Positions 1 through 5,576 of a DNA stretch of 5,576 nucleotides are shown one piece after another; position 1 is the stretch's first letter, and every line of letters starts with the position of its first letter. A model generated the notes under the pieces. That model had not been told where the DNA came from. It saw only the letters and a program-made list of their open reading frames with translations, and ran no database searches. The position numbers and the translations under genes are program-made. Source of the stretch: Actinomycetota bacterium (lineage in GTDB: Bacteria; Actinomycetota; Humimicrobiia; Humimicrobiales; Humimicrobiaceae). The stretch lies in contig JAMCSM010000092.1 of the NCBI GenBank assembly GCA_023380915.1, positions 1-5,576 on the forward strand, written 5' to 3'.

Positions 1-601
1 TCTATGGCCTCTTATTTCAGCTTCATATATTAGAACTTATTTGGATTGGTTGGTTGAACTTCCTTGGTCTGTCTCATCTTCAAATAATGTCGATATTAAA
101 AAAGCAGAACATATTTTAAACGATGATCATTTCGGTTTAAAAAAAATTAAAGAAAGGATACTTGAATATCTGGCTGTTTTGGAACTCAGAAAAAGAAAAA
201 ATACTTCTAAAAAAGAATATCCTCCTACTATTCTCTGTTTTGTAGGACCGCCAGGTGTTGGTAAAACATCGCTTGGAAAATCAATTGCCAGAGCACTCGG
301 TAGAAAATTTGTCAAAATATCATTGGGAGGTATTAGAGATGAAGCTGAAATAAGAGGCCATAGAAGAACATATGTTGGAGCGATGCCAGGTAGAATCATT
401 CAAGGCATAAAACAAGGAGGGACAAAAAATCCTGTTTTCATGCTAGATGAGATAAAGTGGGAAGAGACTATAGAGGAGATCCTTCAGCTGCTCTTCTTGA
501 AGCTTTGGATCCGGAGCAAAATCATGCGTTTTCGGATCATTATCTTGAAGTTAACTTTGACTTGTCAGATGTTTTTTTTATTACTACGGCAAATATTTTA
601 G
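1..601 (+). CDS. lon: Lon protease, N-terminal/ATPase fragment (5' cut by window, frameshifted at 3' end)
   Basis: This is the upstream part of an ATP-dependent Lon protease, the cytosolic AAA+ machine that unfolds and degrades damaged or regulatory proteins. The frame is open from base 2, so the TTG at 41 is an internal Leu, not a start; most of the N-terminal substrate-binding region lies outside the window. Visible in order: [13 protein letters not shown] at the end of the N-terminal region, [17 protein letters not shown], Walker [10 protein letters not shown] (245-271), [28 protein letters not shown], and Walker [10 protein letters not shown] (428-454). All match E. coli and B. subtilis Lon closely. 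After Ile at 452-454 the frame leaves the family: the expected DKxxxDxRGDPS continues one frame back, from 451. The residues read from 455 to the stop at 599-601 (starting WEETIEEI) are out-of-frame translation. Alone, this fragment has no arginine finger and no protease domain. Family identity is certain; whether the break is in the genome or the assembly is not. Confidence 0.93.
446..476 (+). other. Frameshift site in lon (loss of one GATA unit)
   Basis: The family sequence [16 protein letters not shown] needs GAT GAG ATA GAT AAA GTG. The window has only gatgagataaagtg, which is exactly one gata unit short of the expected gatagata. Upstream codons GAT GAG ATA are at 446-454; downstream codons GAT AAA GTG GGA begin at 451. 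The loss of 4 bases shifts the frame by -1 and removes the Asp of DEIDK or its neighbour, depending on how the join is read. A short tandem contraction (slippage) or a sequencing or assembly error would both produce this. The true change is inferred from conservation, not from a second copy of the gene. Confidence 0.85.
455..476 (+). repeat. Short direct repeat, copy 1 (native lon sequence)
   Basis: The core ggaagagactatagagg (460-476) is identical to 1933-1949. Extended leftward to 455, the two copies match over 21 bases except for one extra G here (aagtggg against aagtgg). In this copy the bases encode the conserved Lon residues VGRDYRG in frame, so this is the original sequence. The repeat starts immediately after the lon frameshift site. 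Confidence 0.9.
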
Positions 602-1578
602 ATACAGTTCCTGATGCTTTGCTTGATAGACTGGAAGTTATACATTTTCCAGGATATACAGAAGATGAGAAATTTAATATCAGTAAAGACCATTTGGTGA
701 ATAAACAGGCGGAAGCACATAGCATTACTCAAAAAGATGTAAAAATAACAGATAATGCATTAAAGATATTGATAAGAAGATATACCAGGGAAGCAGGAGT
801 TCGCGATCTTGAAAGACAGATTGCCGCTATCTACAGAAAAGTAGGTAGGGAAATTATTGAGGGTAAAATAAATAATAAAACAGTAGGAGCTTCAGATGTA
901 CCTAAATATTTAGGTCCATTCAAATTCTCTTCCCAGATGATTGAAGAAAAAGATACGATAGGCATATCAACAGGTCTAGCTTGGACTCAGGCTGGAGGAG
1001 ATATATTATTCATCGAAGTTGCGATTATGCCGGGTAAAGGATCCTTAACGCTAACCGGACATTTAGGTGAGGTGATGAAAGAATCTTGCCAAGCTGCTTT
1101 AAGTTATATAAGGGCACGATGGGAGACATTTGGTTTAACAAGAGATTTTTTTAATAAAATAGATATTCATGTTCATGTACCTGAAGGTGCTGTACCTAAA
1201 GACGGTCCATCTGCGGGAATAGCAATTTCAACCGCGATGGTCTCTGCTTTAACCAAAATTCCAGTAAGGCGAGATGTCGGTATGACAGGAGAAATTACCT
1301 TAAGAGGGAGAGCTTTGGAAATTGGTGGAGTAAAAGAAAAAGTTATAGCAGCTCATAGGGCAGGTATTCATACAATTATTATGCCTAAAGATAATAAGAA
1401 AGATTTGGAAGACATACCTAAATACGTCTTAAATGATCTGCACTTTGTTTTTGTATCACACATGGATGATGTTTTAAAAGTTGCATTGGTTTTTCCAAAA
1501 AAACAGCAAGGTACTCAATTTAATCTGAAAAAAGAATTTGTTCAAATGCAAAAGACGCAGATAAAGAAACAAAACTAA
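457..1578 (+). CDS. lon: Lon protease, C-terminal fragment (rest of AAA+ module and Ser-Lys protease domain)
   Basis: This continues the same Lon gene in the -1 frame relative to the upstream fragment; the matching sequence actually begins with GAT AAA GTG (DKV) at 451. The GTG at 457 could serve as a formal start but is the internal Val of [12 protein letters not shown]. Visible in order: [17 protein letters not shown], sensor region [13 protein letters not shown], arginine-finger-like LLDRLEVI, the small helical domain with [14 protein letters not shown], then the protease domain with [26 protein letters not shown] and [19 protein letters not shown]. The nucleophile Ser (E. coli Ser679) is the TCT at 1210-1212; the paired Lys (E. 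coli Lys722), 43 residues later in IGGVKEK, is the AAA at 1339-1341. The C terminus [12 protein letters not shown] and a short basic tail are complete, ending TAA. Both catalytic residues are intact, and there is no second frame break in this part. The stop overlaps the convergent FemA/FemB gene by 4 bases. Confidence 0.94.
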
Positions 1579-1850
1579 ATTAACCTTTTTATTCTGAGAA
1601 ATATTTTTCTAGCTTCGTTTAAATGATTATATATTTGATAGAGCTTATTGTTTATTACTAAATCATAACTTCCGGTAAGCTCGACATATTTTCCTCCATA
1701 ACCTTCTTTAAACCTGGTAAAACCTGCCCATGAACTGTCATGATGACTTGTGGAGAAATCAGGAGCTAATGATCCCCACATATCAAATTTCTTAAGCTGC
1801 ATTTTTTTGCCAAACCTTATGGATTCCCACATGAGTAAATTGGATGCCAT
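1575..1850 (-). CDS. FemA/FemB-family ligase, C-terminal fragment (downstream of in-frame TAG)
   Basis: This is the C-terminal part of the FemA/FemB-family protein whose N-terminal part lies upstream on the same strand in the same reading frame (the two start points differ by 726 bases, a multiple of three). The ATG at 1850 is an internal Met: the frame is open back to the TAG at 1943-1941, and the intervening residues (SLPLASYELFHFKEYLYYPYGGTSTQYRNY) are typical of the second GNAT-like fold of FemAB proteins. Visible motifs are [55 protein letters not shown] and the Arg/Lys-rich end [10 protein letters not shown]. The last 90 residues are complete and end TAG. Translation from Met 1850 would lack half of the second domain and is unlikely to be active. 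The stop overlaps the lon stop by 4 bases on the opposite strand. Confidence 0.88.
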
Positions 1851-1928
1851 ATAGTTTCTATATTGAGTTGATGTCCCACCGTATGGGTAATATAAGTATT
1901 CTTTAAAATGAAAAAGCTCATATGATGC

Positions 1929-1949
1929 AAGTGGAAGAGACTATAGAGG
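1929..1949 (+). repeat. Short direct repeat, copy 2 (lon-like patch inside the FemA/FemB gene)
   Basis: Bases 1933-1949 are identical to 460-476 in lon, in the same plus-strand orientation, 1473 bases away. Extended to 1929 the match is 21 bases with a single-G gap. Here the sequence is antisense to the FemA/FemB gene. It makes up codons CCT CTA TAG TCT CTT, the five codons that disagree with the family, plus the flanking CCA CTT, which agree. The TAG stop is at 1943-1941 within it. The right edge of identity to lon (1949) coincides with the edge of the discordant codons. Confidence 0.9.
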
Positions 1950-2576
1950 GGCTATTAATATATGGGCGATTCCGTTTTTTAAATTTTTCCAGACTATTTT
2001 ATGATAATTATAATCATGCCCGAAATACTTTTGTCTTTTACAGGTTTCAAAATATAATTTAATAAAGATAGAAAATCCTTTATCATCTGATATTTCTCTG
2101 ACAATGACACCCTTTTTTTGCGCTAGCTTTATATTGTAACGTGTTTTTGGTTTCATCTGCATGAGAAGTATATTTTCATTTTTCTGAAGGTCTATTACTT
2201 GTGTCCACGTTGGAAAAAGGGGGTGGGGAGATTTAACTAACATTTTTTTATTATTTCCTATGTTCTCAATATTTGGCTCGAACTTAATAAAAATAATTCT
2301 GTTTTTTTTGGCATACGACCTGAAAAAATCCATAGCCTTTAATGATGGGATTACCGATCGGGGTACGTAACCTATATAAAATGACGTTTTAGGAATCTGA
2401 TGAATCGTTAACTGATAGACATTATTTAAATTAACCTGATCGGTCTCCATTATTCTTACGACCTTAATTCCCATTTCCTTCCTTGCTTCTCCCCATTCCC
2501 AAGCCTGTAATGGATGAGTGGCATAATTATTCCATTTTAAATGGTCAAATTGATCATCAACTATTTTTATTTGCAT
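1941..2576 (-). CDS. FemA/FemB-family peptidoglycan interpeptide ligase, N-terminal fragment (premature amber stop)
   Basis: Members of this family use aminoacyl-tRNA to add residues to the lipid II or peptidoglycan stem peptide, building the interpeptide bridge at the inner face of the membrane. Visible: HPLQAWEWGEARKEMGIKVVRI (residues 21-42), the first GNAT-like fold with FYIGYVPRSVIP (66-77), FIKFEPNIEN, and the diagnostic stretch MKPKTRYNIKLAQKKGV (141-157), followed by FSIFIKLYFETCKRQKYFGHD and GIAHILIA. After Ala209 the expected family run (roughly A-E-Y-x-G-K-P-L-A) is replaced by A-P-L-stop-S-L-P-L-A. The TAG is codon 212; read through, the whole gene would be 334 codons including its own stop, close to normal for the family. 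The ATG at 2576 follows the upstream gene's TAA with no gap and no evident Shine-Dalgarno, suggesting coupled translation. The specific amino acid transferred cannot be told from sequence. Confidence 0.88.
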   Translation of the reverse strand: MQIKIVDDQFDHLKWNNYATHPLQAWEWGEARKEMGIKVVRIMETDQVNLNNVYQLTIHQIPKTSFYIGYVPRSVIPSLKAMDFFRSYAKKNRIIFIKFEPNIENIGNNKKMLVKSPHPLFPTWTQVIDLQKNENILLMQMKPKTRYNIKLAQKKGVIVREISDDKGFSIFIKLYFETCKRQKYFGHDYNYHKIVWKNLKNGIAHILIAPL

Positions 2577-3017
2577 TTAAGAATATTTAAAAAAATAAAT
2601 AAAACTTAATCCGGATATTATCGAATTAATAACGAAATAAAGAATTAGGATGAAGTAGGAAAGACTGATCGAAAATCTGCTTTCTGGCGTTAGAAAATGT
2701 GTTTTTTTAAAAATTCGCATTAACCAGGATCCGCTTCCCCAGCTGTGACCGACAAGAAATATTAAGCTTACAAAAAAATTTAGAGGAAAAATAAGAGTTT
2801 TGACTAAAATATAAGTTAAAACAAACCATATCAGTGCGCCTAGGATAAATAAATAGGGACTGGTTTGAAGTATTAGATAGGCAGGACTGGCCTCATTCAC
2901 TTTCTTATGATTTTGCCAATATTCTTTATCCTGGCCAAATAAAGTCAACGCACCATCAGTAAGCTGAGGTAGAACAAAGGAAAAAAACAGCGGATTAAAT
3001 TTAATTAAATCCATCAT
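2577..3017 (-). CDS. Small multi-pass membrane protein, function unknown
   Basis: I do not recognise a characterised function for this 146-residue protein. It appears to have four hydrophobic segments: about residues 8-27 (weak, interrupted by PQLTDG), 54-72, 77-93 and 117-143. Polar features stand out. QLTDGALTLFGQ (18-29) and, after a short loop, VNEASPAYLIL (40-50) resemble the Asp...Thr plus NEANP pattern of small DUF5658-like membrane proteins; this is a pattern resemblance only. A third motif, GHSWGSGSW (90-98), follows segment three, and a basic loop MRIFKKTH (100-107) suggests a cytoplasmic side there. It starts ATG-ATG 5 bases after the preceding glycosyltransferase stop, and its TAA abuts the FemA/FemB start codon directly, so it is almost certainly co-transcribed and coupled with envelope genes. 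A role in glycan or peptidoglycan assembly is a guess from context. Confidence 0.8.
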   Translation of the reverse strand: MMDLIKFNPLFFSFVLPQLTDGALTLFGQDKEYWQNHKKVNEASPAYLILQTSPYLFILGALIWFVLTYILVKTLIFPLNFFVSLIFLVGHSWGSGSWLMRIFKKTHFLTPESRFSISLSYFILILYFVINSIISGLSFIYFFKYS

Positions 3018-3022
3018 AATTT

Positions 3023-4141
3023 TTATATAGTTCCAGCATTTTTAATAACTTCAAGCGTCTTTTCAGCACACGATTGCCATGAGAACATTTTAACCCTGTT
3101 TTTTCCTTTTGCGATTAAATTAGTTCTAAGTTCCAAATTATTTTTTAGTTCCATCAATTTATCGAATAGATTATTTTCGTCTTTTGGATCAAAATATAAT
3201 GCGGCGTCTCCGGCGATCTCAGGCAAGGAAGAACTGAAAGAACAAACTACCGGGCAGGAAAAACTCATAGCTTCAACTACAGGGATTCCAAATCCTTCAT
3301 AAAATGAAGGAAGCACAAAACAAAAAGCGTTTCGATAAAGTTCAGATAAGTATTTGTCATTTACATAACCTAAAAATAATACGTCATCTTCAAGTTGTGT
3401 TTCTTTTACCTCTCGAAAAATTTTATCATACATCCAGCCTTTCTTTCCTACAATCACCAATTTATAGTCCGGATTTTCATTTCTATATTTTCTATAAGCT
3501 TTAAAAAGAGCGGTCAAATTTTTTCTTGGCTGGAGTGTCCCCACATACAAGATATATTTATGTTTTTTTATAGATGAGTGAATTGAAGGCGTAAAGTCGG
3601 GAATATTTTTAAGGTTTTTTTCGAATCCGTTATAAATTACATCAATTTTATCTTGAGCGGTAGCGTAGAATTTAATAATATCCTTTTTTGTAGTGTTTGA
3701 TACTGCTATTATTTTTTTTGATTTTTCTATGGCAAATTTGGTCCAGTTTTTTAACTTGTATAAATCGTTTTTTTTGAATTCATCGGGATAGTACATGTAG
3801 GAAAGATCATGTATTGTTACAACAGAAGGGAACGGGTTAAATCTTGGAACATAATGGGCAGGGGAAAAGAAAACATTAATTTTTGCTTTTGTTAAATATA
3901 AATATAAAAGCGAAATTGGTAAAAAGATTTGAGACCAAAAAAATTTTCCAGAAATTACCTTATATCTAAAATATTTATTTGACTCTGGCAGATCTTTTTT
4001 AGGATCATTTTTTAATAGAACGACAAACTGAAGATTGTCACTTGATTTCTTTTGAAAATATTCAAGTAATTTTAACGTATAAACCGAAACTCCAACTTTT
4101 TCTATAACATTTGCTTCATTACCATCAATACCGATAATCAT
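3023..4141 (-). CDS. GT4-family glycosyltransferase (MtfB/WbaZ-like)
   Basis: This is a retaining glycosyltransferase with the GT-B fold that moves a sugar from a nucleotide-sugar donor onto a glycan or lipid acceptor at the cytoplasmic face of the membrane. The N terminus MIIGIDGNEANVIEKVGVSVYTLKLL is typical of the mannosyltransferase-B-like GT4 subgroup and supports the ATG at 4141. Visible: FFSPAHYVPR (91-100), VVTIHDLSYMYYPDEF (107-122), IIAVSNTTKKDI (144-155), domain-linking YVGTLQPRKNL (199-209), LVIVGKKGW (228-236), VLFLGYV, and the E-x7-E donor-binding motif YEGFGIPVVEAM with Glu282 and Glu290, then SSLPEIAGDAALYFDP (304-319). At 372 residues it is full length. It starts 20 bases after the stop of a paralogous glycosyltransferase and is followed 5 bases later by a membrane protein. 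No Shine-Dalgarno is obvious. Donor and acceptor cannot be assigned from sequence alone. Confidence 0.93.
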   Translation of the reverse strand: MIIGIDGNEANVIEKVGVSVYTLKLLEYFQKKSSDNLQFVVLLKNDPKKDLPESNKYFRYKVISGKFFWSQIFLPISLLYLYLTKAKINVFFSPAHYVPRFNPFPSVVTIHDLSYMYYPDEFKKNDLYKLKNWTKFAIEKSKKIIAVSNTTKKDIIKFYATAQDKIDVIYNGFEKNLKNIPDFTPSIHSSIKKHKYILYVGTLQPRKNLTALFKAYRKYRNENPDYKLVIVGKKGWMYDKIFREVKETQLEDDVLFLGYVNDKYLSELYRNAFCFVLPSFYEGFGIPVVEAMSFSCPVVCSFSSSLPEIAGDAALYFDPKDENNLFDKLMELKNNLELRTNLIAKGKNRVKMFSWQSCAEKTLEVIKNAGTI

Positions 4142-4161
4142 ATTATTTAATTATTCAAACT

Positions 4162-5271
4162 TTAAGACTTTAAAGCACTTATCATTTTAGTGTAATATTT
4201 TTCCCAAGTGAATTTTGCCCCGTTTTTTAATCCTTTAACTGACAGACTGTTTCTCATTTTTTCATCTTTTATGAGTAAATTGAGACTGTTTTGTATATCC
4301 TCTTCTTTAAATGGATTAAATAGGTGTGCCGAATCGCCTGCAATCTCAGTCAAAGATGATGTATTTGAGGTCGTAACAGGTGCTCCAATTTGCATAGCTT
4401 CAATGACAGGATATCCATATCCTTCCCAAATAGATGGATAGATAAAAAATAAACATGAAGCATATAGTGCGTACAATTCATCATCACTGAGATAACCTAA
4501 GAATCTGACGTTTTGTTTTTTATTAAATTCATCCTGATCAATGCTTATTTTATCCCAGCCTTTTGGTCCGACGATTATAAGGTCGGGTTTAGGCATTTTT
4601 ACTTTCTGGTAAGCTTTTATTAAAGTCTTAATATTTTTTCTCGGTTCAAGCTTGCCTACAGACAATATAAAAGAATTCTTAATTCTATATTTTTTCAAAG
4701 TTTCATTGATTCTAATTAGTGATGGTTTTGTGATTTGAACTCCGGGATAATTAACAATTATTTTTTGGGGATTGAAGTTTAGTAATTCGATAAGATCTTT
4801 TTTGGTGGAATTGGAATCAGCAAAGATAAGTTTATCTTCTTCCTTAATTAATTTTAATCTTTTATTTTGTGTTCTTAGAATTTGGTTATGTACTGTTTCA
4901 GGATAGCGTAAAAAGGTGAGATCGTGTACGATTGTAGTTTTATTAGTGTTTATTTTCGGTTCCGTCCAATCGGAAGAGATGAACCAATCGATTTTATCGC
5001 CAAAATCCGGAGTCAAAATTTTTAAATTGTGTAAATCATTCCATAGTAGAGAGAGTATTGATGGAGGTACTTTCCACTTTATTAACTTATGATTAGATTT
5101 TTTAATTTTCAATTCTGTATTTAAATCCAATTGATTTCTTAAGGAAGAAAAAAAGAAATAGTATTGATTTATACTGTCATGGTCAAGGATATAATTTGTA
5201 AGACCGCTTGTAAATCTAGATACACCTGTTCCTTTATAAACAACCTGTGATATGTCAATCCCTAATTTCAT
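4162..5271 (-). CDS. GT4-family glycosyltransferase (second MtfB/WbaZ-like paralog)
   Basis: A full-length (369 residues) GT-B fold, GT4-family sugar transferase. The start MKLGIDISQVVYKGTGVSRFTSGL fits the subgroup's GID...GVxR opening, so the ATG at 5271 is well supported even though it lies 17 bases inside the upstream gene and lacks a visible Shine-Dalgarno. Visible: TTIVHDLTFLRYPETV (112-127), LIFADSNSTKKDL (148-160), VNYPGV (173-178), LSVGKLEPRKNIKTL (203-217), LIIVGPKGWDK (231-241), VRFLGYLSDDELYALY (255-270), and E-x7-E in WEGYGYPVIEAM with Glu283 and Glu291, followed by SSLTEIAGDSAHLFNP (305-320). It shares this layout with the next gene downstream, so the two are paralogs, though clearly diverged. 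They probably add successive sugars to the same surface glycan; that is inference from adjacency. Substrate is unknown. Confidence 0.93.
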   Translation of the reverse strand: MKLGIDISQVVYKGTGVSRFTSGLTNYILDHDSINQYYFFFSSLRNQLDLNTELKIKKSNHKLIKWKVPPSILSLLWNDLHNLKILTPDFGDKIDWFISSDWTEPKINTNKTTIVHDLTFLRYPETVHNQILRTQNKRLKLIKEEDKLIFADSNSTKKDLIELLNFNPQKIIVNYPGVQITKPSLIRINETLKKYRIKNSFILSVGKLEPRKNIKTLIKAYQKVKMPKPDLIIVGPKGWDKISIDQDEFNKKQNVRFLGYLSDDELYALYASCLFFIYPSIWEGYGYPVIEAMQIGAPVTTSNTSSLTEIAGDSAHLFNPFKEEDIQNSLNLLIKDEKMRNSLSVKGLKNGAKFTWEKYYTKMISALKS

Positions 5272-5576
5272 GTCTTTTAATTTTTTGATAAATAATTTCT
5301 AACTGGTGTGATATTTTTTCATAACTGTAATATTTTTTGACAAGCAAATAGGAATTGGTTCTAAGCTTTTCAAATAATACTTTATCAGTCAGTACAGTTT
5401 TAGTTTTTCTTACAAAATCGTCCGGGTTTTTTGCGATAAGTACATCTTCGTTGTCTTTGACCATTAGTCCGGCCACACCTGTTTTTGTTGAAATAATCGG
5501 TAAACCAGTGGACATGGCCGCGAGAATTTTTAATCTTGTTCCTCCTGGTCCGAAAATCGATACTGACGATCTAACA
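5255..5576 (-). CDS. Glycosyltransferase, C-terminal part (5' end beyond window)
   Basis: This is the C-terminal end of a GT4-like (group 1) glycosyltransferase whose start lies past the right edge. The frame is open to base 5575, so the ATG at 5515 is an internal Met. The visible part begins VRSSVSIFGPGGTRLKILAAMSTGLPIISTKTGVAGL, the donor-binding segment of the second Rossmann-like domain, then DNEDVLIAKNPDDFVRKTKTVLTD and the closing helix YYSYEKISHQLEIIYQKI. This GTRLKIL type differs from the EGxGxPxxEAM type of the two downstream genes, so it belongs to another GT4 subgroup. At the place where related proteins usually read KILEAM, it has KILAAM, with Ala for the second Glu of E-x7-E. The stretch before GPGGT also looks two or three residues shorter than in usual relatives. 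Its TGA overlaps the next gene's start by 17 bases, consistent with one operon. Confidence 0.85.
   Translation of the reverse strand, partial: VRSSVSIFGPGGTRLKILAAMSTGLPIISTKTGVAGLMVKDNEDVLIAKNPDDFVRKTKTVLTDKVLFEKLRTNSYLLVKKYYSYEKISHQLEIIYQKIKRHEIRD

Follow-up and report, generated by a model that had tools for sequence, protein, structure and literature searches.

The window analyzed here, a stretch of 5,576 nucleotides that is very probably a whole contig, carries a lon protease gene in two pieces, a FemA/FemB-family peptidyltransferase gene and further reading frames on the minus strand (Table 1). In Pfam searches, PF00004 was found in the first lon piece (P0005) and PF22667 and PF05362 in the second (P0002), so the AAA+ module and Lon_C are both present; PF02388 matched both pieces of the FemA/FemB gene (5.8e-18 and 2.2e-8). 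The 146-residue frame matched nothing in Pfam, nor did tblastn at 1e-10 detect it in 127 loci. The convergent order of lon and FemA/FemB recurs in the five genomes whose lon is closest (G057, G003, G011, G013 and G009), and named best protein matches included Candidatus Roizmanbacteria and other Patescibacteria. The search for a sibling genome found none: the best FemA/FemB protein match was 60%, lon reached 82% in that protein search and 84% in whole genomes, and the DNA of positions 2600-5576 matched relatives at best at 65% over long stretches. Besides, a 16-base perfect palindrome lies within lon at 900-915, and three additional residues precede a conserved block of the FemA/FemB product when it is aligned with 39 homologs (about 1730-1755, minus strand).

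Table 1. Coordinates of genes, repeat copies and lesions in the window.
Feature	Position	Strand	Remarks
lon protease gene, AAA+ part	2..454	+	5' end open; native lon begins at about 23; conservation of this frame stops at DEI
lon, remaining AAA+, lid and Lon_C protease domain	457..1578	+	Other frame than 2..454
FemA/FemB-family peptidyltransferase gene	1575..2576	-	Convergent with lon; interrupted by a single TAG
146-aa reading frame	2577-3017	-	Adjoins FemA/FemB start; no name
Two complete group-1 glycosyltransferases		-	
Reading frame truncated by contig end		-	
Inverted lon copy	1..26	-	Joins native lon at about 23-26, TCAT on both sides
Native lon source of inverted copy	339..364	+	
4-base loss in lon	447..456	+	Exact place ambiguous; shifts frame
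AAGTGG in lon flank	455..460	+	Microhomology with FemA/FemB 1929-1934
AAGTGG in FemA/FemB flank	1929..1934	+	Complement of conserved P-L codons
Native 17-mer copy in lon	460..476	+	Encodes GRDYRG; presumed donor
Second, foreign 17-mer copy, in FemA/FemB	1933..1949	+	Codons 210-214 at 1935-1949, reading PL-stop-SL

Broken versions of either of the two interrupted genes are not common in the group. An ortholog of lon (best E ≤1e-100) was detected in 79 of 83 genomes, the exceptions being G023, G058, G064 and G074, and its open frame was at least 700 aa long in 77 of the 79 and shorter in G069 (430) and G081 (269). Eight of the 79 lon matches (G001, G003, G028, G037, G049, G069, G070 and G071) counted one or two internal stops, all reached at least residue 354, and most of these stops are probably the terminal stop run past. 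For FemA/FemB, 83 genomes were searched and 74 gave a best E of ≤1e-40, a tally that leaves out six weaker matches (G029, G053, G058, G064, G081 and G083); there was no match in G023, G076 and G082. The open frame was at least 300 aa in 71 of the 74, although G024 and G034, which are within this number, have one stop each inside the match. It was shorter in G013, G037 and G052, and the pieces of G037 start at contig ends. Among the weaker matches, the frames of G029 and G053 were short (146 and 82 aa).

A pattern search of the window found the 17-mer GGAAGAGACTATAGAGG exactly twice, both times on the plus strand, in agreement with the first-pass annotation from which this analysis started. The extension of the match to 21 bases with one G indel, also claimed there, was recovered as AAGTGG followed by AAGAGACTATAGAGG with one G gapped. 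Among exact repeats in the window, this was the second longest, after a 26-base inverted match. That annotation had considered a 17-base identity very unlikely by chance on account of its length, which was overstated. Exact repeats of at least 17 bases (copies separated by 100 bases or more, matches composed of one or two letter types excluded) occurred in 3 of 300 Markov-1 sequences built from the window. The count for real sequence, 5576-base cuts from 79 related loci with N-containing pieces dropped, was 11 of 118, several of the 11 being A/T-rich; a count of zero for the 17-mer concerns this single pattern, not any repeat of such length. The length of the match alone is therefore weak evidence. 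The position of the copies, which had likewise been thought telling, is the stronger evidence: one covers the sole stop of the FemA/FemB gene, and the other lies within about 10 bases of the break in the lon frame. By inference and not by calculation, two such placements at lesions by chance would come to about 1 in 10^5.

Comparison with orthologous sites separated the two copies. Sites were collected from 127 loci with the pattern DEIDK.G.D.RGDP for lon and a pattern around A-5-PLA for FemA/FemB, sites that did not fit being left uncounted. The 17-mer differed from 54 distinct lon sites by 4.8 bases on average (least 1) and from 57 distinct FemA/FemB sites by 11.3 (least 7), a mean that is lowered by two of the 17 bases falling in the conserved P codon, while 20000 random positions gave a mean of 12.6. 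Both earlier assignments, native for the copy encoding GRDYRG and non-native for the FemA/FemB copy, thus stood. Because the 17-mer is close to lon orthologs and nearly random with respect to those of FemA/FemB, the comparison supports a transfer from lon to FemA/FemB, with lon as the probable donor. The search for further copies that had been proposed found none in 72 family genomes or in the 79 related loci.

From 2576 to 1575 a lone TAG, situated inside the 17-mer copy, is the only interruption of the FemA/FemB frame. The patch spans five codons exactly, with a conserved block on either side, and in a read-through alignment homology resumed at P215 with the five-residue spacing, ungapped, in all 39 aligned homologs (of 119 listed); a replacement of five codons that leaves the length unchanged and brings in the premature stop, as first described, was therefore confirmed. 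The stretch has the sequence of native lon, is foreign in FemA/FemB and leaves the spacing intact. At residues 210-214, homologs carry F or Y in 100 of 104 cases, next Y in 91 of 104, then mainly N/K/E/Q, mainly D/N and mainly I/T/V. The pattern behind this tally was fitted by 104 of the 119 homologs listed; of the other 15, six have the same spacing under a looser pattern and nine were unread. Of 83 genomes searched in the order, 80 had a match to the FemA/FemB piece P0001, and by eye this match ended exactly at residue 209 in 69 of 74 genomes (E ≤1e-40) and at 199-211 in five, which is a weak test since P0001 is only two residues longer than 209.

We also scored the patch against a profile of the five columns. 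In frame it scored -22.0, and 78% of 3000 random contig 15-mers were at least its equal. With up to two frame slips the score rose to between -10.2 and -0.2, depending on the penalty, and 31-35% of 3000 random contig 15-mers scored as well. The lowest of 56 native sites had 0.9. With slips, a tyrosine encoded by the patch falls on the conserved position; S is found at residue 213 in 1 of 104 homologs and L at 214 in 4 of 104, and K-A-L and N-S-M occur among the loci. Two compensating single-base slips were not favored, as the score stayed below all 56 native sites. Judged by this profile and the ortholog comparison, a native origin of the stretch appears unlikely.

When aligned with relatives, lon is conserved up to DEI (residue 151 of P0005) and again from V-GRDYRG (residue 1 of P0002). 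This is consistent with a frame break by loss of four bases a few bases upstream of the 17-mer copy. The loss had been described as lying directly beside the copy; it is close, but it does not abut. In 8 of 54 lon ortholog sites the place of the lesion is a two-unit four-base tandem, and because of this a simple slip would be enough for the loss. Replication slippage in short tandems is a known process, which fits the loss in lon and does not account for the patch. Programmed frameshifting or recoding was set aside, the two lesions being unrelated and both genes being open in most relatives.

A feature that the earlier annotation had not mentioned lies at the start of the contig, where the first 26 bases are an exact inverted copy of a segment of lon. 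At the join there is a 4-base overlap, TCAT; the native conserved block begins at 23, and the relatives shown have a conserved S-Y there. We compared the outer 60 bases with the next 3000 at 160 ends from 80 sources (the 79 loci and the window); 42 locus ends coincide with the end of a contig, as read from the locus table. An exact inverted match longer than 14 bases was found at the start of the window and at none of 158 other ends, an N-run in L075 being set aside. Inverted joined segments with a few shared bases, as expected of an in-vitro chimera, were found within the contig at its start only, and this copy points to chimerism more directly than anything else in the contig.

The junctions of the patch are short. 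AAGTGG flanks both 17-mer copies, as had been reported, and may be taken as native to both genes because in FemA/FemB it is the complement of conserved P-L codons. At the left junction AAGTG(G) is common to both genes (some 5-6 bases when a slip of one base is allowed), and a left-flank match this long or longer, slip allowed, was seen in 1203 of 100000 random pairs. At the right junction 0-1 base is shared beyond the copy. Since these overlaps are far below any usual k, the junction probably stems from a real molecule or read, which speaks against a pure k-mer error.

These observations may be accounted for by a templated patch primed by microhomology and made in vitro, which we regard as the probable explanation. 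A growing strand ending in AAGTGG at FemA/FemB would have annealed to the AAGTGG of lon, been extended over about 15 lon bases and gone back to its own template. Fifteen FemA/FemB bases would in this way have been overwritten by lon sequence 1.47 kb away with the length unchanged, and the event, in an amplification or library step, may have been retained in a thinly covered contig. Polymerase template switching and an origin in vitro rather than in a cell are what we infer from the arrangement; the latter is favored because the contig starts with an inverted lon chimera and both genes are usually kept in relatives. One damaged source would also explain the inverted copy, the 4-base loss and the patch more easily than three mutations. 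In a study of single-cell MDA chimeras (PMC1855051), the inverted type was the main form (406 of 475), and more than 70% of junctions were primed at 2-21 shared nucleotides; end-repair artefacts able to invert sequence are described in another report (PMC10908179). The start of the contig resembles chimeras of this kind in its inverted copy, the intervening gap and the few shared bases, and priming of a 3' end at short matches is a further likeness (PMC1855051, PMC10908179). The patch itself is different. It is direct, about 15 bases long, and it returns in register to the first template, whereas the usual chimera form is a single join; such a length-preserving return is unusual for an in-vitro chimera and speaks against this reading. 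So does the scarcity of direct-orientation MDA chimeras of less than 10 kb in PMC1855051 (11 of 475). Moreover, the contig is not generally poor, and identity windows over its testable rest contained no other obviously foreign block (some variable windows fell as low as 0.18; P0007 had no comparator).

The main rival is mutation within the cell, by short-patch double illegitimate recombination or a replication template switch that put a lon segment into FemA/FemB and inactivated it, with the 4-base loss in lon as a separate or the same event. The lack of another obviously foreign block in the testable rest of the contig would suit such an origin, which we consider unlikely on balance: it requires the joint breakage of two genes whose frames most relatives keep open, it leaves the inverted copy unexplained, and events of this kind are very rare in wild-type cells. 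Short-patch double illegitimate recombination, a known bacterial process able to make such patches, involves microhomology at both junctions. Here about 5-6 bases are shared on the left if the sequences slip by one, and 0-1 on the right, with no visible microhomology beyond the copy, and any shared bases hidden inside the copy would be indistinguishable. In Acinetobacter baylyi, Harms et al. 2016 reportedly described the replacement of a short resident segment by an intragenomic segment with the help of microhomology, and a short intragenomic replacement with one-sided microhomology and kept length fits the title of that work. The likeness, a resident segment replaced by one from elsewhere in the genome, holds here within the contig only; the present case differs in being known from the sequence of a contig and in its host, an uncultured Roizmanbacteria-like organism. 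A literature search for template-switch patches in bacteria yielded, among the papers it covered, none taken as a description of the mechanism.

Two further explanations carry less weight. The FemA/FemB stretch might be the gene's own sequence, altered by compensating small indels or ordinary decay and matching lon by chance. The observed frequency of repeats of at least 17 bases and the tyrosine restored by two slips, with S at 213 and L at 214 each present in a few relatives, would agree with this; yet the slip fit is equalled by about one third of random 15-mers and remains under every native site, and chance would have to place both copies at lesions, which makes coincidence improbable. 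An error of short-k-mer assembly or gap filling alone, with no molecule underlying it, is less probable still, and we give it very little credence. The inverted overhang of exactly 26 bases would agree with a graph end at k=27, although this is speculation, and the overlaps at the two patch junctions are too short for it. Of the candidate causes proposed earlier, the short-k-mer error accordingly seems unlikely, and the view that an artefact is at least as likely as biology holds: an artefact of DNA preparation or assembly is more likely than evolution.

If the patch is an artefact, a short templated chimera can make two genes of a metagenome contig look like pseudogenes, and an inverted copy at a contig end would be a cheap warning sign. 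It seems rather doubtful that a living Roizmanbacteria-like cell made this intragenomic, length-preserving replacement of a short FemA/FemB patch by lon sequence. If it did, short-patch illegitimate recombination would be extended to an uncultured lineage, and the locus would give direct evidence of template-switch patching shaping genes in a group with reduced genomes, at a rate that could be counted from metagenomes.
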